A stretch of DNA of 7,722 nucleotides from an uncultured Clostridium sp. (GTDB lineage Bacteria; Bacillota_A; Clostridia; TANB77; CAG-508): contig CAJKKA010000077.1 of assembly GCA_905200315.1 (NCBI GenBank), positions 1 through 7,722 on the forward strand. Reading direction: 5' to 3'. This document shows positions 1 through 7,722 of this stretch, piece after piece. The position numbers and the translations under genes were made by a program. The notes beneath the pieces were generated by a model that saw only the letters and a list, made by a program, of their open reading frames with translations, made no database searches and was not told the origin of the DNA. How positions within the stretch are numbered: the first letter of the stretch is position 1; every line of letters begins with the position of its first letter.

Positions 1-229
1 GGCATAATTATATACTTCTCTAACTTTATTGACTTATATATATCATTTATTTTCCTTATACACTCATTTGCAACTTTGCCAATATCATTATATTGCATTC
101 GCCATCTACAATTTCACCAAAATAGTGCACTTTTTCTTTTGTACATATTGTAATAAAATAGTATCCTCTTAATTTGTAATTATAATCTTTTAATCTTGGA
201 TTTTTTCTTTCAAAATATCTATTATTCAA
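1..229 (-). pseudogene. REP-associated tyrosine transposase (RAYT, IS200-like Y1 family), frameshifted and cut by the window edge
   Basis: The N-terminal half of a Y1 (HUH) transposase of the RAYT group. The first part reads NPRLKDYNYKLRGYYFITIC, then TKEKVHYFGEIVDGEC, which is the family's typical opening. This frame then stops at 56-58. One base over, from about position 92 down to 1, the family sequence resumes as YNDIGKVANECIRKINDIYK and continues to IIMP with no stop. A single-base loss around 92-94 therefore disrupts the gene. The HUH catalytic motif (usually NHIH right after MP in this family) and the catalytic Tyr would lie beyond the left edge. The start chosen is TTG at 227-229, because a GAGAGG ribosome binding site (236-241) lies 6 nt upstream. 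A GTG at 251-253 is an alternative without a site. Family proteins nick single-stranded REP hairpins. One such hairpin lies directly upstream. The call is by motif recall, with no search behind it. Confidence 0.82.
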
Positions 230-246
230 TATATTCCTCTCTTTAT

Positions 247-270
247 GGAGCACACTGTGCTCCGCTACAA
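247..270 (-). repeat. REP-like hairpin with GTAG head, directly upstream of the RAYT remnant
   Basis: On the minus strand, TTGTAGC leads into GGAGCACA-G-TGTGCTCC, an 8-bp perfect stem around one base (247-263). The GTAG tetranucleotide sits at the 5' foot of the stem, as in REP sequences recognised by RAYT transposases. It ends about 6 nt before the RAYT ribosome binding site. It shares the head-plus-palindrome layout, but not the stem sequence, with the element at 502-526. It is probably the transposase's own recognition element or a degenerate copy, and could also influence translation of the transposase. Confidence 0.6.
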
Positions 271-286
271 ATTACTATTTATTATT

Positions 287-397
287 TTAGTTTATTATAT
301 ACTCTATTATCTTTTTTGAAATTGCTCTTCCCAAAATATTTACTAATTCTTTAATTTTATTTTCTTTGTATCTTTTTATCATTTTTAATTTATCCAC
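287..397 (-). CDS. Possible 36-aa small ORF, lysine/isoleucine-rich, unrecognised
   Basis: A GTG-initiated frame encodes about 36 residues (starts VDKLKMIKRYKENK, ends SKKIIEYIIN) and stops at 287-289. It is basic and would be largely helical. No clear ribosome binding site precedes it: only AAAG lies close to the GTG. It lies between an intrinsic terminator and a REP-like hairpin, so it may be a chance frame or the tail of a decayed gene. I do not recognise the sequence and assign no function. Confidence 0.15.
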   Translation of the reverse strand: MDKLKMIKRYKENKIKELVNILGRAISKKIIEYIIN

Positions 398-426
398 TCT
401 TTATTATAATTATCAAAGCAATTATA

Positions 427-455
427 TAAAAAAAGTCACTATATTTCAAGTGACT
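427..455 (-). terminator. Intrinsic terminator of the SAS/winged-helix unit
   Basis: On the minus strand, a 7-bp stem AGTCACT/AGTGACT (449-455 and 434-440) with an 8-nt loop is followed by seven Ts (427-433). It lies about 110 nt past the stop of the winged-helix gene, with the REP hairpin in between. The plus strand also shows CTTTTT after the stem, so it could act in both directions. Confidence 0.75.
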
Positions 456-501
456 CTTTTTATATAATTTTAAACCTTCTAATAACAAATATTTTTTTGC
501 A

Positions 502-526
502 GGCGGACAGAGGCGTCCGCCCCTAC
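502..526 (-). repeat. GC-rich REP-like hairpin with GTAG head
   Basis: The minus strand reads TTGTAGG followed by GGCGGAC-GCCTCT-GTCCGCC, a perfect 7-bp stem with a 6-nt loop (502-521). A GTAG-headed hairpin of this composition is the kind of short interspersed palindrome associated with RAYT transposases in Bacillota, from general recall. It lies in the 3' region of the winged-helix gene, before the terminator. A second small palindrome (527-539) abuts its 5' side. Confidence 0.65.
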
Positions 527-567
527 AACGTTTGACGTTATTTTATTTTAATATTCAATATCTTCTA

Positions 568-864
568 TTATATGCTTTCCAACACATATCCATTATTTTC
601 GTTTATTCTTATATTTGCACCTAGTGCTAAAAATTTTTCTTGCAGATATGTTATGTACATTGTAACTATATTTTCATTCTTTTTCTCATTTGACCATACT
701 TTTTGCTTTATCTCTTTTTTGCTTACATTTCTTTCCTGATTATTTACTAATATTTCCATTACTTCACATTCTTTATTATTTAGATATAAACAAGCATTTG
801 TATTTGTAAGCTCCGCTTCTTCCTTATCAAATACTATGTTTCCAATTTCATATTTTTCTTTCAT
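568..864 (-). CDS. Stand-alone OmpR/PhoB-type winged-helix DNA-binding protein
   Basis: A 98-aa protein that is essentially only a Trans_reg_C domain, with no receiver domain. Numbering from the ATG: N-terminal beta strands at about 6-27, helix 1 in LNNKECEVMEILVNN (28-42), helix 2 in SKKEIKQKVW (48-57), the recognition helix in NENIVTMYITYLQEKF (63-78), and the wing hairpin ending in NNGYVLE (90-96). The last corresponds to the family's G-Y-x-L/F signature. It presumably binds DNA, but nothing here shows its targets or input signal. ATG at 862-864 is chosen because GAAAGAAG (875-882) sits about 10 nt upstream; a GTG three codons earlier (871-873) would have almost no spacing. It starts 19 nt after the stop of the alarmone synthetase gene and shares its terminator, so the two are almost certainly cotranscribed. 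Confidence 0.85.
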   Translation of the reverse strand: MKEKYEIGNIVFDKEEAELTNTNACLYLNNKECEVMEILVNNQERNVSKKEIKQKVWSNEKKNENIVTMYITYLQEKFLALGANIRINENNGYVLESI

Positions 865-883
865 AATACTCACACTTCTTTCT

Positions 884-1486
884 TTAGTTTTTATTTATCA
901 TATTTCTTATAGCTAACATATTAATGTCTGTTGTAGCTATTTCATCTGCACATCTTTTTAATTCTTCAACTATTATTTCTTGATTTTTTATATTTTTCTT
1001 ATATTTCATTTGATGTTCCAAACTTGACCAAAAATCCATTGCTATTGTTCTTATTTGAATTTCTACATATGTTTTATATATTTTACCTTTTATATTAATA
1101 GGTACTCTGCATACTATATGGTAGCTACGGTAACCATTTGGTTTTGGTTTTTTTATATAATCCTTTTCTTTAATAATTTCTATTTCATTGTATTTTTTAA
1201 TACTCTCTACTATTGAATAAACATCATCTATATATTCACATATTACTCTAACTCCTGCTGCATCATAGACTTTTGCTAATGCGTTTTCCAAGCTAACCTC
1301 TAAGTTCTTTCTTTTTAATTTGTCTTTCATACTTTCTTCAGTTTTTATTCTTGTAGTAGTATATTTTATAGGATTTCTTTCTCTATTTATTTCTTTTTCT
1401 TCTTTTATTTCATCTAATATCTTTTCTATCTTTTTAATAACTTCATTTAACAAAATAATATTTTCTTTATAAAACGAATCATCCAT
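884..1486 (-). CDS. Small alarmone synthetase, GTP pyrophosphokinase (RelQ/YjbM-like SAS)
   Basis: A 200-aa single-domain RelA/SpoT nucleotidyltransferase. It would transfer pyrophosphate from ATP to GTP or GDP to make (p)ppGpp in the cytosol. Visible motifs: ATP-binding RIKTEESMKDKLKRK (46-60), metal-ligand Asp in YDAAGVRV (D75), KDYIKKPKPNGYRSYH (108-123, the acceptor-nucleotide G-loop), and VEIQIRTIAMDFWSSLEH (141-158) with catalytic Glu142. No HD hydrolase domain or TGS/ACT regulatory part is present, so it is synthetase-only. Length and the C-terminal helical tail fit the SAS family. The N-terminus (about 1-40) is a charged helix. The start is supported by AAGAGG (1493-1498), 6 nt upstream of the ATG. 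It is the first gene of a two-gene unit with the winged-helix protein. I could not identify a convincing promoter in the preceding 127 nt. RelP versus RelQ subtype is not resolved. Confidence 0.92.
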   Translation of the reverse strand: MDDSFYKENIILLNEVIKKIEKILDEIKEEKEINRERNPIKYTTTRIKTEESMKDKLKRKNLEVSLENALAKVYDAAGVRVICEYIDDVYSIVESIKKYNEIEIIKEKDYIKKPKPNGYRSYHIVCRVPINIKGKIYKTYVEIQIRTIAMDFWSSLEHQMKYKKNIKNQEIIVEELKRCADEIATTDINMLAIRNMINKN

Positions 1487-1583
1487 AAAAAACCTCTTTT
1501 CTTTTTATATTTTATGCTGGTATTTTATATTTAATTTATTTCTAAAGTATTTACATTTTGTGTATTTTGTGTGAAACAGAAAA

Positions 1584-1606
1584 AGAATAGCCATATTAGC
1601 TATTCT
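1584..1606 (-). terminator. Intrinsic terminator after the Dps gene
   Basis: On the minus strand, an 8-bp stem AGAATAGC/GCTATTCT (1599-1606 and 1584-1591) with a 7-nt loop runs into TTTTTCTGTTT. It starts 8 nt past the Dps stop codon and separates this gene from the alarmone synthetase unit. Confidence 0.85.
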
Positions 1607-1613
1607 AGTTATT

Positions 1614-2042
1614 TTATTGTTTCATTTGTTTTAACATCCACAATTTTTTTCCGTAATTTTCTATATATTCATCCATTAAGCTTGATGTTGGATAATCTTC
1701 ATTTTCATCTGCACATTTTTTTATTTGTTTTACATCTTCTAGTAATTTTTCTAAATCTTTTATAACCTCTGTAAATATTTCTTGAGATGTTATTTTTTCA
1801 TTTTTTGCTTCTTCAATATCTGAGGTATTTATATAGTCTTTCATTGTTCCTAGAGGTTGTCCATTTAATATTAGTATATGCTCTGCAATTTCATCTATTT
1901 GTTCATTTACTTCATTATAGTATTCTTCTAATTTTGCATGAATTGTAAAGAAATCGTGTCCTTTTACATTCCAGTGGTAATTTTGCAATTTACGGTAAAA
2001 AACATTTAAATCGCTTAGTAATTTGTTTAATTTTTCAATCAT
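1614..2042 (-). CDS. dps: Dps-family ferritin-like DNA-protection protein
   Basis: A 142-aa Dps/mini-ferritin. Members form 12-subunit cages that oxidise Fe(II) with peroxide, store iron, and shield DNA or limit Fenton chemistry. The intersubunit ferroxidase ligands are visible: His23 in NYHWNVKG, His35 in FFTIHAKLEE, and Asp50 and Glu54 in QIDEIAEHI. The closing helix KKLWMLKQM also matches the family. It is somewhat shorter than typical Dps proteins (about 150-170 aa) and has no long lysine-rich N-terminal tail, so direct DNA binding cannot be assumed. The start has a good AGAAGG site (2050-2055), 7 nt upstream. It lies 77 nt downstream of splB on the same strand and ends at its own terminator. 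I saw no clear promoter in the gap, so it may be read from splB. A palindrome cluster immediately upstream (2058-2080) may be an operator. Confidence 0.93.
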   Translation of the reverse strand: MIEKLNKLLSDLNVFYRKLQNYHWNVKGHDFFTIHAKLEEYYNEVNEQIDEIAEHILILNGQPLGTMKDYINTSDIEEAKNEKITSQEIFTEVIKDLEKLLEDVKQIKKCADENEDYPTSSLMDEYIENYGKKLWMLKQMKQ

Positions 2043-2057
2043 AATAAAACCTTCTTT

Positions 2058-2080
2058 CCATAATTATGGTATATTCCATA
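2058..2080 (-). promoter_or_regulatory. Overlapping palindromes upstream of dps (candidate operator or leader hairpin)
   Basis: A perfect 12-bp palindrome CCATAATTATGG (2058-2069) shares its TATGG half with a second inverted repeat TATGG-N6-CCATA (2065-2080). This gives three alternating copies of one half-site just before the dps ribosome binding site. It does not match the PerR box (TTATAAT-N-ATTATAA) I know for dps-type genes. It could be a repressor site or a 5'-UTR hairpin. Chance occurrence is possible in such AT-rich DNA. Confidence 0.35.
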
Positions 2081-2119
2081 CTCAAATAAATTCTTTCCAA
2101 ATTACTATAAATTATTCAA

Positions 2120-3118
2120 TTACGAAATATATAAAATTTTATTATTAGGAAAATATTTGTGCATAATATCTTTCATAAAAACTTCTGCATCTTCTCTTAT
2201 TACCTTTTTATACATATACTTTCCTTTTCCTCTTCCTGTCATCAGCTCTGTGTCATATAAATTTACTGCCATTGGAAAAGCTTCGGTATTTATCATTCTA
2301 TGAACATAACTATATGTCATAAATATTAATTCAAAAAATACATTTTTCTTTGCTTTTTCTGCTAATTTTTCTTGCAATTCTTTTAGAAGATTTTCGTACA
2401 GTTCTTTCCAATTTTCTACTAATATTATTGGTGCAATTAAAATTCCAATAGGATAATCTGCTTCTGCAAGTTTGTTTATTGCCTCTATTCTACCTTTTAA
2501 TCTTGAGGTTCCAAATTCAACTTTATTTATAATTTCTGAAGGATTTATGCTCATTCTTGCTATTACTTTTCCCTTATGGTCTAAGCCTAATATTGGATCT
2601 ACCATATCGAATTTTGTTGGAAAAGTTAATTTTCCTTTTGGAGAGTTTTTAAATTTTTCTATTGTCCAAACTAAATTATTTGTTATTGTATTTTCTAAAA
2701 TTAAATCGCTATTGCTTCCAATTTCAAAACATAAATCTTCTTCTGCTTTATTTGCTCTTTTTATAATTTTATCTAACATTTGCTCTCTATTTACAAAAAG
2801 CCTTAAATATGCACATTTGTTATAATTACATACTAAATAACAATACATACACATTGCAATACAACCAGAAGATGTATATGGCACTAAATAATCTGAAACC
2901 TTACGATTTTCTACATAATTGTGAGTTTTCCTAGTTCCAATTATTAAATTTCTTTTCATTTTTGCAAATTCCGAATTTTCCTTTTTTCTCATCTCTTCAA
3001 TATTATTATGATTATCTATTATTTTTTTAGGAACATCTTTATATTTTTCTAAAAGCTCTTTTCCAAGCTCATAATTTTCAATTCCATCTTCCATATATAT
3101 TGCATCTGGAATAAACAT
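2120..3118 (-). CDS. splB: Spore photoproduct lyase (radical SAM DNA repair enzyme)
   Basis: Repairs 5-thyminyl-5,6-dihydrothymine (spore photoproduct) in UV-exposed spore DNA during germination, using S-adenosylmethionine and a [4Fe-4S] cluster. Residue numbers count from a TTG at 3143-3145; subtract 9 for the start chosen here. The cluster motif is C95-x3-C99-x2-C102 in SSGCIAMCMYCYL, with Tyr101 and Tyr103 in the positions of the Bacillus hydrogen-relay tyrosines. FEIGSNSD (140-147), GKLTFPTKF (171-179), MSINPSEII (198-206) and YPIGILIAPI (231-240) follow in family order. The C-terminal GRGKGKYMYKK corresponds to the family's substrate-side segment. Where the Bacillus enzyme has its hydrogen-donor Cys (FEASCTSD), this protein has Ser144. 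The start is ATG at 3116-3118, because GGTGAT lies 4 nt upstream and FIPDAIYMED then aligns with the Bacillus N-terminus; the TTG lacks a site. Length is 332 aa, close to the family norm of about 340. Dps follows on the same strand. Confidence 0.93.
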   Translation of the reverse strand: MFIPDAIYMEDGIENYELGKELLEKYKDVPKKIIDNHNNIEEMRKKENSEFAKMKRNLIIGTRKTHNYVENRKVSDYLVPYTSSGCIAMCMYCYLVCNYNKCAYLRLFVNREQMLDKIIKRANKAEEDLCFEIGSNSDLILENTITNNLVWTIEKFKNSPKGKLTFPTKFDMVDPILGLDHKGKVIARMSINPSEIINKVEFGTSRLKGRIEAINKLAEADYPIGILIAPIILVENWKELYENLLKELQEKLAEKAKKNVFFELIFMTYSYVHRMINTEAFPMAVNLYDTELMTGRGKGKYMYKKVIREDAEVFMKDIMHKYFPNNKILYIS

Positions 3119-3122
3119 ACAC

Positions 3123-3128
3123 ATCACC
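3123..3128 (-). promoter_or_regulatory. Ribosome binding site deciding the splB start
   Basis: GGTGAT, complementary to the part of the 16S tail just outside the CCUCC core, lies 4 nt before the ATG at 3116-3118. No purine-rich site precedes the TTG at 3143-3145, and the ATG at 3122-3124 overlaps the GGTGAT itself. This favours the innermost start. Confidence 0.45.
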
Positions 3129-3164
3129 AATTTTATTTTCTTCAAAAAAAATTTTTATATTCAA

Positions 3165-3198
3165 TAAATAAAAAATAAAGCAATATAATTTTATTGCT
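3165..3198 (-). terminator. Intrinsic terminator of trmB
   Basis: On the minus strand, AGCAATA (3192-3198) and TATTGCT (3179-3185) pair around a 6-nt loop, followed by the T-rich run TTATTTTTTATTTATT. The hairpin begins at the base after the trmB stop codon. It separates trmB from splB, so splB should have its own promoter. Confidence 0.7.
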
Positions 3199-3861
3199 CT
3201 ATTCTTTACATTTTGCAATTAATGCTTTTATTTTTATTCCTTGTTCTGAAAACATTTTTTCATGTTCTGTTATTATATTATCTGGTGCATTTTCACTATA
3301 TAAGTCGTAAGTTTTCTTTATAATTTTAAACCCACTTTCTTCAAAGTATGTTAAACTTGCTTCAAATAATTCATCATCATCTGTTTTAAAATAAATTTCT
3401 GCATTTGGACTAATTATTTGTTTATATTTTTCTAATTGTCTTGTATGTGTTAATCTCTTTTTTCTATGTTTTCCACGAGGCCATGGATTGCAAAAATTAA
3501 TATATATTCTATCTATACTATCTTTTTTGTCCATAATTAAAAGTATTCTTTCTATATCAAATCTTGTTAAATATACATTATCTATTTCCATATTATTTTC
3601 TTTAAATTCAGCCTCAATATTTCTTTTTGCTAACCCTAACATTGCATCTACAACATCTATAGCTATATGGTTTACATTTCTATCTCTTGTAGCAAGCTTT
3701 GCCATAAATGTACCTTTACCACATCCAAGTTCCAAATGTAAAGGTGCTTCTGGGTTTTTAAAAAGTTCTCTCCACTTGCCTTTATAATCTTCTGGGTTAT
3801 CTATATAAAATTTACTTGCTTCTAATTCAGGTCTAGCCCACTTTTTAAATCTAATTCTCAT
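3199..3861 (-). CDS. trmB: tRNA (guanine-N7)-methyltransferase
   Basis: Makes m7G46 in the variable loop of tRNAs, using S-adenosylmethionine. The 220-aa length is typical of bacterial TrmB. The SAM-binding glycine motif is LELGCGKGTF (43-52), and the acidic motif II is IAIDVVDAML (66-75). The family signature FCNPWPRGKHRKKRL is at 123-137, with Asn in place of the more usual Asp before PWP. YFKTDDDELF (157-166) and ITEHEKMFSEQG (197-208) are the conserved C-terminal substrate and catalytic elements. The start ATG has AAGGAG (3870-3875) 8 nt upstream. A consensus promoter lies just before it and a terminator just after, so it appears to be monocistronic. Confidence 0.96.
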   Translation of the reverse strand: MRIRFKKWARPELEASKFYIDNPEDYKGKWRELFKNPEAPLHLELGCGKGTFMAKLATRDRNVNHIAIDVVDAMLGLAKRNIEAEFKENNMEIDNVYLTRFDIERILLIMDKKDSIDRIYINFCNPWPRGKHRKKRLTHTRQLEKYKQIISPNAEIYFKTDDDELFEASLTYFEESGFKIIKKTYDLYSENAPDNIITEHEKMFSEQGIKIKALIAKCKE

Positions 3862-3889
3862 ATTTTTATCTCCTTAAACAATATTTGAC

Positions 3890-3918
3890 ATTATACAACA
3901 TTATTCAGGAAATATCAA
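3890..3918 (-). promoter_or_regulatory. Sigma-A-type promoter of trmB
   Basis: TTGATA (3913-3918), a 17-nt spacer, and a perfect TATAAT (3890-3895) on the minus strand. The start site would be near 3883, leaving a leader of about 20 nt before the trmB ATG. The -35 lies 16 nt beyond the stop of the HAD gene. Confidence 0.85.
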
Positions 3919-3934
3919 TAAGTAGTCTACTACC

Positions 3935-4573
3935 TTATAAGACATTTTTTAATTCTGAAAATTCATTTATAGTTATATAATCTTTACTGTTTTTTTCTGC
4001 ATTTTTATTTATGTGTATGGCTTTTAAGCCTGCATTTATCGCTCCTTCTATATCTACTTTTACTGTATCCCCAACCATTACTGCTTCTTCTGGTTTATTT
4101 TGGCAAGCTTTCATAAATGCTTCTTTATTTGGTTTTATTAAGAATGTTTCTGTTGCATATACTTTGCTAAAATATTTTAGTATATTTGCTATTTCCAATC
4201 TTTTTACCTGAGGATCTTTAAACCAATTTGTTAGAACTACTAATTCATATTTTTTTGATAGATACTCTAAAGTTTCATATATTTCTTTATTCATTTTATT
4301 TGGTGCACAGTTAGAAAAATGTTCTAAACATTTTTCTAAAAATCTCATATTCACTTTAATATTTACAGACTTATTTATCCATTCTAGCATATTTTCTTTT
4401 GTATATGTATTGTATTCTGTTTCATATCTATCTATAGCATTTTCTATATCTTTTATATCTTGTTTTGTATATTTAATGTATTCAGACTTTAAAGCTTCTT
4501 CAACCCCGTCCCAGTATTCATCTTTCCATTCTATTAATGTGTTATCTAAATCAAATATTATTCTTTTTATCAT
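3935..4573 (-). CDS. HAD-family (subfamily IA) hydrolase, probable phosphatase
   Basis: A 212-aa haloacid-dehalogenase-fold hydrolase. All four motifs are present: motif I DLDNT with nucleophile Asp8 and general acid Asp10; motif II LTNW with Thr115; motif III Lys147 in IKPNKEAF; motif IV MVGDTVKVDI with Asp169 and Asp174 for Mg2+. The helical insert between about 15 and 85 is a C1-type cap, as in YjjG/phosphoglycolate-phosphatase-like proteins. The substrate cannot be read from sequence; small phosphorylated metabolites or nucleotides are usual. The start has AGGGGG (4577-4582) close upstream of the ATG. It follows the ATPase gene by 43 nt, with a hairpin in the gap, so it probably depends on read-through from upstream. 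Only a weak hairpin (about 3919-3935) follows it. Confidence 0.9.
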   Translation of the reverse strand: MIKRIIFDLDNTLIEWKDEYWDGVEEALKSEYIKYTKQDIKDIENAIDRYETEYNTYTKENMLEWINKSVNIKVNMRFLEKCLEHFSNCAPNKMNKEIYETLEYLSKKYELVVLTNWFKDPQVKRLEIANILKYFSKVYATETFLIKPNKEAFMKACQNKPEEAVMVGDTVKVDIEGAINAGLKAIHINKNAEKNSKDYITINEFSELKNVL

Positions 4574-4591
4574 ATATCCCCCTAAAACTTA

Positions 4592-4612
4592 AGGCACGGT
4601 GTTTCCGTGCCT
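4592..4612 (-). terminator. Hairpin between the ATPase and HAD genes (leaky terminator or processing hairpin)
   Basis: A perfect 8-bp GC-rich stem AGGCACGG/CCGTGCCT with a 5-nt loop, 4 nt past the ATPase stop codon. On the minus strand it is followed by TTAAGTTTTAG, an interrupted T tract. The HAD ribosome binding site starts only about 9 nt beyond the stem, leaving no room for a new promoter, so complete termination would silence that gene. Confidence 0.55.
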
Positions 4613-4616
4613 ATTA

Positions 4617-7337
4617 TTATTCATCTTTAAATGTGTTTATTTTTAACATTTTAAATATTTCAACTATAACTATTGGCATAAGAACAAGTATTATTAATTC
4701 TATTATATTGTCTTTTGGTAATAATGGTATGCTAAATATGTGTCTTAAAGCTGGTATAAATAATATTACTAAAACTAATACAAGTGATATTCCTGTATTT
4801 ATTAATAGTTTTTTATTATTAAATAATTCTTTGCTAAATATTGTTTTCTTGTTGTTTCTTACATTAAATACATGTGCAAGCTCTCCTACTGATAGTGTTA
4901 TAAATGCCATTGTTTGACCCACTTCTACTTTTGATTCATCTAAAGTAAGTCCTTCTATTGGAGTTTTTGTTGTAGCCATTCCTATAATAAATGCTGCAAG
5001 CGTAAGCAAACCAACCATTATTCCTTGGTATACTACTCTATAGGTCATTCCTTTAGTGAATACACCTTTTGATGGTTTTAAAGGTTTTCTTTTCATTATT
5101 TCTTTGTCTGCAGGATCGAACGCAAGTGCTAATGCAGGAAGTGAATCTGTTACTAAATTTACCCATAAAATGTGTATTGGTAATAATACTTCTATTAATT
5201 CTACATCTGTTACTCCACACCATTTTGCAAGTAATGGCGTTAATAGTGTTGCAACAAATAGAACTATTACCTCTCCTATATTTGATGATATTAAAAATTG
5301 TATTACTTTTAATATATTGTCATATATTCTTCTACCTTCTTCAACTGCTGAAACTATTGTTGCAAAATTGTCATCTGTTAATATAACATCTGCAGCTTCT
5401 TTGGCAACTTCTGTTCCTACATTTCCCATTGCACAACCTATATCTGCAGTTTTTAATGCTGGACTATCGTTTACCCCATCTCCTGTCATAGCAACTATTT
5501 CTCCATTTGCTTGCCATGCTTTTACTATTCTAACTTTGTGTTCTGGAGATACTCTTGCATATACAGAATATTTTCTTATATTTTTTGTTAATTCTTCATC
5601 AGATATTTTTTCAAGTTCTTCTCCTGTCAATGCTTCGTTTTCATTTTCTAAAATTCCAAGTTGTTTTGCTATTGCCATTGCAGTTATTTTATGGTCTCCT
5701 GTAATCATTACAGTTTTTATTCCTGCTGTTTTACATTTTTCTACTGCATGTTTTGCTTCTTCACGTGGTGGGTCTATCATTCCTAACATTCCGATAAATA
5801 TTAAGTCGTTTTCTATGTTTTCTAGCTCTTCTTTGTCTGGTTTGTGGTCCATTTCTTTATATGCAAAACCTAAAACTCTGAGTGCATTTTTTGCCATTTC
5901 TTCATTTGCGGAATTTATTTCTACTTTATAATTTTCTAAGTCTGTTCTTAATTCTCCATCTATTTCATAACCTTTACAAATTCTTAATAATTCATCTATT
6001 CCACCTTTTGTATATACTCTGTATAGGTTATCTGCTACTTTATGAATTGTTGTCATTAATTTTCTATCGGAATCGAATGGTACCTCTGCAATTCTTGGCA
6101 TATCTGAATATACACTTGAATCGAAGTTAAATTTGAATGCAACTTCTGTTAAAGCTGTTTCTGTTGGGTCTCCTGTAAGACTTCCATCTTCTAGTATTTT
6201 TGAATCGTTACAAAGTATAGCATTATTTAGAAGCTGAAAAATTTCGTTGTCCATTTTTATATTTTCTATATCTATAAGTTTTTTATTCCAAAATGCTTTT
6301 TTTACTGTCATTTTGTTTTGTGTAAGTGTTCCTGTTTTATCTGAACATATTACTGTACTACTTCCAAGTGTTTCTACTGCTGGCAATTTTTTTACTATTG
6401 CATTTTTCTTTACCATTTTTTGAACACCTATTGCAAGCACTATAGTTGATACTGCAACTAGGCCTTCTGGAATTGCCGCAACGGCTAAACTTACAGCTAC
6501 CATAAACATATTTATTATTTCTTTGCCTTGTATAATTCCAATTAAAAATATTACTATACAAATTATAATTGCTGCAATTCCAAGTGTTTTACCAAGTTTA
6601 TTTAGCTTTGTTTGAAGCGGTGTTTCTTGCTTTTCTGTATTGTTTAGCATATTAGCTATTTTACCAACTTCTGTATTCATTCCTGTTGCAACAACTATTG
6701 CTTCTCCTCTACCATATGTTATTAAGCTTGATGAAAATAGCATATTTATTCTATCTCCAACACCTATTTCCCTTTCTTCTATTTTACTTGCCATTTTTTC
6801 TATTGGTAAAGATTCACCTGTTAAAGATGCTTCTTGTGACTTTAAGTTTACTGCTTCTGTAATTCTTAAATCTGCAGAAATGTAATCTCCTGTTTCTATT
6901 ACAACAACATCTCCTGGGACTAAATTACTTGAAGGTATAACCTCTACTTTACCATTTCTCTTTACTTTTACGGCGTGGCTACTTAATTTTTGCAATGCTT
7001 CTAAAGATTTCTCAGCTTTATTTTCTTGGCTAACTCCTATAATAGCATTTACTATTACAACTATTAAAATTACAATAGTATCTGTAATTCCTTCGCCTTG
7101 TGCTACACCAACAATTCCTGAAATAATTGCTGCAATAATTAAAATAATTATTGAAAAATCTTTAAACTGCTCTAAAATTTTCGAAAATGTACTTTTTTTC
7201 TTTTTCCCTTTTAATTCATTCAAACCATATTTTTTTAGTCGCTCTTTTACTTCATTATCATTTAATCCATTTTCTAAATTTGTTTTTAGTTCTGTTTCAA
7301 CCTCTTTTACAGTTTGATTAAACCAATTTTTCTCCAT
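4617..7337 (-). CDS. PMCA/SERCA-type cation-translocating P-type ATPase (Ca2+ and/or Mn2+ export)
   Basis: A 906-aa P2-type ATPase in the plasma membrane. It would pump a divalent cation out of the cell by the phosphoenzyme cycle. Order: N-terminal cation-ATPase region (1-60), M1/M2 (about 62-101), A-domain SLTGES (171-176), M3/M4 (about 252-303) with AIPEGL (288-293), phosphorylation motif CSDKTGTLT (331-339, Asp333), nucleotide-domain YTKGG (442-446), DPPR (522-525), MITGDH (544-549), hinge TGDGVNDSPAL (618-628), then M5-M10 (about 677-896). Residues equivalent to the SERCA calcium ligands are all present: Glu291 (M4), Asn686 and Glu689 (M5), Asn727, Thr730 and Asp731 (M6), Glu819 (M8). Length is normal. 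ATG start with a strong AAGGAGG (7344-7350). Upstream lie a consensus promoter and a riboswitch-like leader, which points to regulation by metal, probably Mn2+. Annotation pipelines may call it calcium-transporting; the leader makes Mn2+ equally likely. Confidence 0.93.
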   Translation of the reverse strand: MEKNWFNQTVKEVETELKTNLENGLNDNEVKERLKKYGLNELKGKKKKSTFSKILEQFKDFSIIILIIAAIISGIVGVAQGEGITDTIVILIVVIVNAIIGVSQENKAEKSLEALQKLSSHAVKVKRNGKVEVIPSSNLVPGDVVVIETGDYISADLRITEAVNLKSQEASLTGESLPIEKMASKIEEREIGVGDRINMLFSSSLITYGRGEAIVVATGMNTEVGKIANMLNNTEKQETPLQTKLNKLGKTLGIAAIIICIVIFLIGIIQGKEIINMFMVAVSLAVAAIPEGLVAVSTIVLAIGVQKMVKKNAIVKKLPAVETLGSSTVICSDKTGTLTQNKMTVKKAFWNKKLIDIENIKMDNEIFQLLNNAILCNDSKILEDGSLTGDPTETALTEVAFKFNFDSSVYSDMPRIAEVPFDSDRKLMTTIHKVADNLYRVYTKGGIDELLRICKGYEIDGELRTDLENYKVEINSANEEMAKNALRVLGFAYKEMDHKPDKEELENIENDLIFIGMLGMIDPPREEAKHAVEKCKTAGIKTVMITGDHKITAMAIAKQLGILENENEALTGEELEKISDEELTKNIRKYSVYARVSPEHKVRIVKAWQANGEIVAMTGDGVNDSPALKTADIGCAMGNVGTEVAKEAADVILTDDNFATIVSAVEEGRRIYDNILKVIQFLISSNIGEVIVLFVATLLTPLLAKWCGVTDVELIEVLLPIHILWVNLVTDSLPALALAFDPADKEIMKRKPLKPSKGVFTKGMTYRVVYQGIMVGLLTLAAFIIGMATTKTPIEGLTLDESKVEVGQTMAFITLSVGELAHVFNVRNNKKTIFSKELFNNKKLLINTGISLVLVLVILFIPALRHIFSIPLLPKDNIIELIILVLMPIVIVEIFKMLKINTFKDE

Positions 7338-7395
7338 ATATTTCCTCCTTGTTTATATTATTTTACAAAAATCCCTTTTTATGTAGATATAATAA

Positions 7396-7445
7396 AAATA
7401 ATGAGAATCATCTGCAGAAAAGTCTACAGATAAGTCTCATTATTT
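7396..7445 (-). terminator. Riboswitch-controlled terminator ahead of the ATPase gene
   Basis: A long hairpin on the minus strand. The outer 11-bp stem is AAATAATGAGA (7435-7445) with TCTCATTATTT (7396-7406). After a 3x3 internal loop, an inner stem ATCTGTAG (7424-7431) pairs with CTGCAGAT (7410-7417), with one mismatch and a 6-nt loop. The 3' arm runs into a T-rich tract (TTTTTATTATAT). It lies inside the ATPase leader, upstream of the ribosome binding site. Its 5' arms overlap the 3' closing strand of the aptamer, so the two structures cannot coexist. Confidence 0.75.
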
Positions 7446-7524
7446 AAAATATAGACAGATTTTAAAAATCGGTTATGTTGCCTATATTACATATTTTATT
7501 AATATGCCAATTACTCCCTTATCT
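7428..7524 (-). promoter_or_regulatory. yybP-ykoY-like (Mn2+) riboswitch aptamer in the ATPase leader
   Basis: Read on the minus strand. P1 is AGATAAG (7518-7524) with CTTATCT (7428-7434), 7 bp. Its upper end opens into GGAGTAA (7511-7517) on one side and TGAGA (7435-7439) on the other. This matches the yybP-ykoY pattern in which AAAGG-GGAGUAG faces GCAAGA-CCUUU. P2 is CATATT/AATATG (7501-7506, 7490-7495) with a 5-nt loop. P3 is AATATAG/CTATATT (7482-7488, 7448-7454), with an internal loop GCAACATAACC opposite TGT, capped by GATTT/AAATC (7466-7470, 7458-7462). The class senses Mn2+ and is known to precede related P-type ATPases (Lactococcus yoaB, pneumococcal mgtA). Caveats: I see no counterpart of the extra helix between P3 and the 3' strand in the Lactococcus RNA, and the internal loop was compared from memory only. 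Confidence 0.7.
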
Positions 7525-7532
7525 TTGCCTGA

Positions 7533-7561
7533 ATTATATATTAATTGTATTTTCTTTTCAA
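7533..7561 (-). promoter_or_regulatory. Sigma-A-type promoter of the ATPase gene
   Basis: TTGAAA (7556-7561), a 17-nt spacer and a perfect TATAAT (7533-7538) on the minus strand. Transcription would start near 7526, two or three bases before the first paired base of the aptamer. This independently supports that the following structure is a transcript leader (about 190 nt to the ATG). Confidence 0.85.
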
Positions 7562-7598
7562 GTTTTTATAACAAATTTAATAAATTTGTAAATTAGTA

Positions 7599-7628
7599 TT
7601 GACAAATAATAGAATAATAGGTTAAAAT
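7599..7628 (+). promoter_or_regulatory. Promoter of the tRNA-His gene
   Basis: A perfect TTGACA (7599-7604), an 18-nt spacer and TAAAAT (7623-7628). The start would be near 7635, giving a short 5' leader before the tRNA. The leader contains a small GTG..GCG/CGC..CAC foldback (about 7637-7659) that RNase P processing would remove. The promoter diverges from that of the ATPase gene, with 37 bp between the two -35 boxes. Confidence 0.8.
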
Positions 7629-7662
7629 ATTAACTGTGCTAGCGATAAGCGCATAACACTAT

Positions 7663-7722
7663 GGTGGATGTAGCGTAGTTGGTTAACGCGTCAGATTGTG
7701 GCTCTGAAGATCGAGGGTTCGA
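7663..7722 (+). tRNA. tRNA-His (anticodon GTG), 3' end cut by the window edge
   Basis: The cloverleaf is readable from the 5' end. It starts with the extra G(-1) typical of tRNA-His at 7663. The acceptor strand GTGGATG (7664-7670) is followed by T8 A9, a D arm GCGT/ACGC with AGTTGGTTA, and G26. The anticodon arm is TCAGA/TCTGA, closing a TTGTGGC loop with anticodon GTG at 7698-7700. A 5-nt variable loop and the start of the T arm (GAGGG TTCGA) follow. The remaining T stem, acceptor 3' strand and any encoded CCA lie past the right edge. Confidence 0.93.

Follow-up and report, generated by a model that had tools for sequence, protein, structure and literature searches.

A candidate manganese-type (yybP-ykoY-like) ON riboswitch of compact, P4-less form upstream of a cation ATPase gene in an uncultured Clostridium

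Introduction

The contig CAJKKA010000077.1 of an uncultured Clostridium sp. (assembly GCA_905200315.1) was analysed over positions 1 to 7,722, and this whole stretch of 7,722 nucleotides is referred to here as the window. On its minus strand, a leader precedes the gene of a P-type cation ATPase, and an initial annotation, made from the letters alone, had read this leader as a manganese-type (yybP-ykoY-like) transcriptional ON switch. The question raised by the locus is whether a leader that Rfam does not report can nonetheless belong to this riboswitch class and, in that case, which metal it would sense, in which direction it would act and how widely its form is spread.

Results

The leader extends on the minus strand from the promoter (7561-7533) as far as the start codon of the ATPase gene at 7337, and its features are collected in Table 1. 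A consensus promoter had been described immediately before the leader, and it is found there, ending at 7533. Promoters with at least 9 of 12 matches occupy the same place in 67 of the 85 sites with enough upstream sequence, against 2/85 at a control position lying 150 nt upstream of it. The helix originally named P1 was correctly placed and its pairs covary; as the switch helix P1.1 it comprises 7518-7523 with 7429-7434, to which the window adds a seventh pair, A7524-U7428. The L1 strands said to flank it are also in place, GGAGUA facing GAGA, while a further helix, P1.2 (7508-7511 with 7439-7442), has to be added to the set first listed.

Table 1. Features of the ATPase gene and its leader, with positions in the window and the evidence for each.
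Feature	Position	Strand	Evidence
P-type cation ATPase, 906 aa	4617..7337	-	nearest solved relatives named calcium-transporting ATPase
Sigma-70-type promoter TTGAAA-17-TATAAT	7533..7561	-	11/12 consensus matches
Whole aptamer, P1.1 to P1.1	7428..7524	-	alignment, covariation, leave-window-out model
P1.1 switch helix, 5' strand	7518..7524	-	98.1% of cells paired; 4/6 pairs double-changed
P1.1 switch helix, 3' strand, common to terminator	7428..7434	-	covariation, folds
L1 5' strand, GGAGUA	7512..7517	-	38/38 order and 28/28 class sites
L1 3' strand, GAGA, facing GGAGUA	7435..7438	-	35/38 order and 26/28 class sites
P1.2 5' strand, with 7439-7442	7508..7511	-	99.1% of cells paired; 3/4 pairs double-changed
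P2 hairpin	7489..7507	-	97.8% of cells paired; 4/5 pairs double-changed
P3.1 5' strand, with 7448-7456	7480..7488	-	97.5% of cells paired; 6/9 pairs double-changed
L3, putative metal loop, AACAUAACC	7471..7479	-	AACA in 36/38 order and 27/28 class sites, as aligned
P3.2 hairpin, variable	7458..7470	-	folds, alignment
J3/1 linker UUAAA where P4 would be	7443..7447	-	UUAAA in 29/38 order and 20/28 class sites
Intrinsic terminator hairpin, then U-rich tail	7396..7445	-	folds at -25.4 kcal/mol

The leader at 7419-7530 (minus strand) forms an aptamer that is conserved and shows covariation. Homologous leaders were found by blastn (best E 1.7e-24) among 287 genomes of the order of Clostridia bacterium isolate ABMPRH_59_0, and an alignment of the window with 26 relatives (27 sequences) led RNAalifold, unaided, to P1.1, P1.2, P2, and P3, with 25 pairs, 17 of them changed on both sides. 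For the 24-pair structure, 98.0% of the 648 cells are paired and 17 of the 24 pairs show double changes, compared with 7.1 in shuffles (none of 500 reaching 17) and with 4-7 in slid controls; the shuffles drop the relatedness between sequences and the slid controls keep it. Covariation appears in all four helices, and the search for compensatory changes in orthologous leaders that had been proposed as a check thus comes out in favour of the structure. Considering that (i) homologues exist in other genomes and (ii) a leave-window-out model built from the 26 relatives scores the window at 97.0 bits (E 2.2e-19), the structure of the leader is not due to chance. Two models are distinguished here: R1, the compact model, includes the window and has its P3 off at two inner pairs, while R2 is the corrected 24-pair model, built without the window. 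The best ATPase orthologue found (L001, 71% identical, held by isolate ABMPRH_59_0) had been expected to carry the leader as well, an expectation that was ruled out, since none of this type is visible there by eye; the single R1 match in that genome sits on a different contig.

By their letters, the L1 (GGAGUA/GAGA) and L3 (CAACAUA...) of this leader are those of the Mn2+ (yybP-ykoY) riboswitch. They were read in 66 sites, namely 37 of the order, the window, and 28 of 100 class sites, these last being the best-scoring of the R1 sites and so biased to the model, with two more counted with the order. GGAGUA is found in all 66, and the strand opposite is GAGA in 61, AAGA in 4 and CAGA in 1. L3 contains AACA in 63 sites and, as aligned, ACCA, GUCA or GACA in the remaining three, where the adenosine equivalent to A7476 is also kept, L088 and L091 being possibly misaligned. 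CAACAU starts L3 in 42 of the 66, and the commonest loop, CAACAUACU (17/66), is identical to X. oryzae residues C44-U52, the Mn2+ loop of the crystal structure, as given in an excerpt of PMC6754395. The loop of the window, CAACAUAACC, differs from CAACAUACU beyond the seventh base. In the same excerpt (PMC6754395), C44, A45, A46, ACA48, U49, A50, C51, and U52 lie in or beside L3, A48 (A41 in L. lactis) is an invariable adenosine contacting Mn2+, and A10 of L1 docks onto the G66-C44 pair; A7476 of the window L3 would correspond to A41/A48, and A7515 of its L1 to the A-minor adenosine A10. The pair beside L3 is C-G in 25 of the 27 aligned sequences. The leader therefore displays, among the features of the class, the GGAGUA/GAGA-like L1, the L3 adenosine, and helices P1, P2, and P3 with conserved pairing.

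A plainer reading would be that of an AU-rich leader whose terminator is constitutive or belongs to an ordinary attenuator, with no metal sensing. It can draw on the missing Rfam report for the window and on the folding energy, the fold of 7390-7530 (-38.4 kcal/mol, against -20.34 with sd 3.19 for shuffles, z -5.66) owing a large share to the terminator, with P1.1 absent from the full-length fold. It is contradicted by the leave-out model score together with the covariation in all four helices, by loop letters that are invariant outside the helices, and by the recurrence of the leader upstream of metal exporters, so that we consider it very improbable.

Between P3 and P1.2, the window holds just the five bases UUAAA (7443-7447); P4 is absent, and the junction is consequently a three-way one instead of the four-way junction with P4 seen in the crystallised members of the Mn2+ class. 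P4 is taken here as not defining for the class, since an excerpt of PMC9495176 describes a three-way junction for the mgtA aptamer of pneumococcus. The absence of an additional helix ahead of the 3' strand, already surmised at the outset, recurs among the relatives, the linker being short in 36 of the 38 order sites (window included) and replaced by a hairpin in 2/38. To speak of a divergent variant was right insofar as the leader is P4-less, but the three-way-junction form in this class is already known from S. pneumoniae, according to that part of PMC9495176, and is not new. By model alignment the linker measures 5 nt in 28/28 class sites read, and by a separate parser in 20/28, the other 8 being unparsed or misparsed; it is UUAAA in 49/66 and UGAAA in 7/66 sites. 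The weak R1 sites of the order at L090:1501-1603 and L091:1501-1626 have a hairpin at the place of P4; P2 is almost lacking in L090, which also carries a tmRNA gene.

Once four identical sites had been removed, re-parsing of the 88 distinct sites gave 63 short linkers, 19 long ones and 6 unparsed. Two of the 19, L135 and L138, were parsed wrongly; the other 17 fold some hairpin (P4), doubtfully so in L143, L148, and L165. P4-bearing sites thus make up 17/88 (three doubtful) within the same class, so that both forms coexist, although the high scorers of the P4-less model lack P4 partly by construction and 15 of the 17 hairpin sites came via the RF00080 search.

When run as proposed for this leader, the RF00080 covariance model went against it, the window staying unmatched at E up to 10. 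None of the relatives reaches its cut-off of 45 bits, the best scoring 39.7; G040:C44 obtains 26.4 bits (E 1.6e-5), or 28.0 when its aptamer is scored by itself, and three others among 20 aptamers obtain 19.6-23.4. Below the cut-off, the class genomes yielded 32 sites in 30/391, at most at 39.7 bits. Nine of these 32 coincide with R1 sites; E values are 6.3e-9 (RF00080) and 1.9e-11 (R1) at G636:C211, and 2.5e-8 and 4.8e-12, respectively, at G544:C1. Over the cut-off, RF00080 was found in 0/274 and 0/391 genomes, in strictly filtered searches that also missed L. lactis and that scored few candidates per genome, no more than 6 in the 391-genome one. In the control set, 2 of 14 named genomes came over the cut-off and L. 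lactis, found in another search, went unreported; because this control was missed as well, the blank is partly a product of the search filters. Direct scans at the cut-off found RF00080 in 0/12 loci. The compact model R1, by comparison, finds 37 sites in 27/287 genomes of the order (E 0.01) and 100 sites in 90/391 genomes of the class (E 0.001). Annotation in Clostridia is nonetheless not empty, a predicted Mn2+ riboswitch being listed for C. difficile in an excerpt of PMC11477304. An unrelated RNA, which the blank RF00080 result first suggested, was rejected. Rfam matches of the window to microRNA, sRNA, and plasmid-RNA families were also discarded, all being under their cut-offs and most lying on the terminator palindrome.

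The sense of control can be approached through the terminator, which had been proposed to be built from the 3' strands of L1 and P1. This overlap is indeed seen, its 5' arm including the 3' strands of P1.2, L1 (GAGA), and P1.1. In a crude scan, where sites were sorted by model-alignment linker length and some P4-bearing ones were mislabelled as short, the best terminator draws 3 nt or more from the 3' strand of P1.1 into its 5' arm in 71 of the 88 distinct sites. Minimum-energy folds of the growing transcript, computed in 3-nt steps without ligand, still contain P1.1 at 7411, but at 7408 the terminator has taken its place, so that the decision would come shortly after synthesis of the P1.1 3' strand. 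Since the 3' strands of P1.1 and L1 serve the terminator as well, the predicted logic is that metal means ON. Mn2+ would bind where L1 presumably docks on L3, the metal-bound L1-L3 would hold helix P1.1, and P1.1 so held would block the overlapping terminator, with the cation-ATPase gene likely switched on. The L. lactis riboswitch, as described in the available text of PMC11087558 and PMC9190785, keeps P1.1 in place once Mn2+ is bound and lets RNA polymerase read through, and on this model metal would induce the ATPase here. We infer that L1 docks on L3, that Mn2+ is the ligand in the cell and that control runs in this direction, and the combined picture of a P4-less Mn2+-type leader in which Mn2+ at L1-L3 holds P1.1, blocks the terminator and turns the ATPase gene on is, in our judgement, highly probable.

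The same aptamer fold might instead work in the reverse sense, or control might be mainly translational. The ON direction is read from strand overlap and nothing else, and a C. difficile review, in the portion available, labels the Mn2+ riboswitches OFF switches (PMC11477304), contrary to the sense taken here. On the other side stand the P1.1 3' strand within the terminator arm at most of the sites scanned, the L. lactis member, described as an ON switch in the part of PMC9190785 at hand, and the S. pneumoniae mgtA member, activated by Mn2+ according to an excerpt of PMC9495176. A reversed or translational mode is accordingly given a very slim chance.

The gene behind the leader was initially called a PMCA-type ATPase. 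A P-type ATPase it is, but the PMCA label is loose: against the PMCA-type NCBIfam model TIGR01517 the protein scores 493.8 bits, just under the cut-off of 507.05, and the best NCBIfam model is the PMR1-type one, at 706.2 bits, under its cut-off of 798.3. Each of the three best solved relatives bears the name calcium-transporting ATPase, two of them being lmo0841, which we take to be a Listeria gene. Behind the 66 sites, genes were classed by their best blastp match at 1e-5 to four references, comprising two ATPases, an MntP and an antiporter; Pfam was used to check one MntP, one antiporter, and the window ATPase. This gave MntP in 26 sites (20 of them outside the order), a P-type ATPase in 14, a Na/Ca-type antiporter in 9, and another gene or none readable in 17. 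Within the 38 order sites, the Na/Ca-type antiporter stands behind 9, and a gene without match to the exporter references behind 15. Two of the 17 are L108, with dapA (Pfam) followed, by eye, by an apparent dapB and an ATPase like that of the window, and L105, where such an ATPase is the second gene. The P4-bearing site L141 has a GDT1-type antiporter behind it.

These genes bear on the identity of the ligand, for the same RNA with the same ON logic could respond physiologically to Ca2+, or to Ca2+ and Mn2+, which would suit a Ca2+-ATPase. The names of the three solved relatives and the Na/Ca-type antiporters of the order agree with this, as does the pneumococcal mgtA aptamer, which, in an excerpt of PMC9495176, binds Ca2+ tighter, yet Mn2+ activates transcription better. 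MntP, a manganese efflux pump in Pfam, is however the commonest gene, mostly outside the order, and the N7-donor adenosine favouring Mn2+ is kept. Ca2+ is therefore a possible ligand and the main rival to Mn2+, but an unlikely one.

Some genomes carry several copies. R1 finds six sites in genome G273 and five in G211; one of the six precedes MntP, whereas the other five, and all five of G211, precede other genes, among which a pfkB-type kinase was recognised in each genome, the other scanned proteins being without Pfam match. Among the copies concerned are L095, L096, L097, and L098 in G273, and L085, L094, L100, L101, and L102 in G211. Some of the leaders L095-L098 have two successive hairpins, the first taking the P1.1 3' strand and the second being a terminator with a similar 5' arm, an arrangement that, as modelled, suggests a relay terminator.

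Elsewhere in the window, the start of a tRNA gene (7664-7722, plus strand; anticodon GTG, by eye probably His) is transcribed away from the riboswitch, with a promoter TTGACA-18-TAAAAT at 7599-7628. On the minus strand, 884-3145 encodes in succession a protein with a RelA/SpoT domain, a ferritin-like relative of Dps and a relative of spore photoproduct lyase. A 65-aa minus-strand ORF at 56-263, without Pfam match, adjoins by eye a palindrome at 247-263 and presumably resembles the start of a REP-associated transposase, and a second GC-rich palindrome was seen by eye at 502-521.

Discussion

By all sequence evidence, the leader would be a manganese-type ON riboswitch in a compact three-way-junction form that Rfam does not report for the window. 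The reading given in the initial annotation is thus also the best one here, on account of L1, L3, the helix pairing, and the terminator overlap.

A broader proposal is that Clostridia hold a P4-less Mn2+ subclass in which a UUAAA/UGAAA linker replaces P4, which is joined with SSRC10 and mgtA, is common and mostly sub-cut-off, and in some genomes reaches five to six copies with metal-responsive control of non-export genes by a relay terminator of two hairpins. We advance it tentatively, at somewhat below even chances, and keep it lower because L. lactis, too, escaped the RF00080 searches and a C. difficile member is annotated.

If true, RF00080 annotation at its cut-off would understate how common RNA control by manganese (or calcium) is in Clostridia, 90/391 genomes with the compact model contrasting with 0/391, under the caveat that L. 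lactis was missed and that the C. difficile member is in print. It also raises the questions of whether L1-L3 docking needs P4 and of what role the conserved UUAAA linker plays, and it connects a streptococcal RNA filed as an sRNA (SSRC10) with the Mn2+ riboswitch class. The interesting part lies in the wide occurrence and the linker. Among the matches listed in open-access PMC, no paper deals with a P4-less Mn2+ riboswitch in Clostridia and none links SSRC10 to the class.

Regarding known systems, the S. pneumoniae mgtA riboswitch shares with the window leader the three-way junction, the place before a Mn2+/Ca2+ ATPase, and activation by metal, as far as an excerpt of PMC9495176 goes; its aptamer forms with Ca2+ or Mn2+ (Martin et al. 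2019, via PMC9495176). It comes from a Streptococcus and not from Clostridia, and the likeness is drawn by description, not letter by letter. The Rfam family SSRC10 (RF02617, 'Streptococcus sRNA 10') scores 26.1 bits on the window (E 0.0026) and matches 5 of 20 aptamers at E up to 1, the best with 38.3 bits (E 4.9e-5), all below its cut-off of 56. Its consensus shares GGGAGuag, a P3 with CGUCaaUACGg, the UgAAA linker, gaGaC, and a terminator-like hairpin, and, although filed as an sRNA, unlike the window leader, SSRC10 looks like a P4-less Mn2+ riboswitch plus terminator. Its place in S. pyogenes is between SPyM3_0439 and SPyM3_0440, the latter a 'putative calcium transporter' in the passage available from PMC3675131. 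The predicted Mn2+ riboswitch of C. difficile before CD2503, a P-type ATPase, is likewise clostridial and is compared by its description in an excerpt of PMC11477304.

With respect to the yybP-ykoY Mn2+ riboswitch itself (RF00080; L. lactis yoaB, X. oryzae yebN, E. coli mntP/alx), the window leader differs in having no P4 and a three-way rather than four-way junction, an AU-rich P1.2 and a 5-nt linker, mostly UUAAA among its relatives; to the RF00080 model, the window is without match and its relatives are under the cut-off. On the contrary, P1.1, L1, P2, and P3 are the same, both have an L3 with the putative Mn2+-contacting adenosine and exporter genes behind, and in the L. lactis member, as predicted for the window leader, P1.1 is the switch helix that competes with the terminator.
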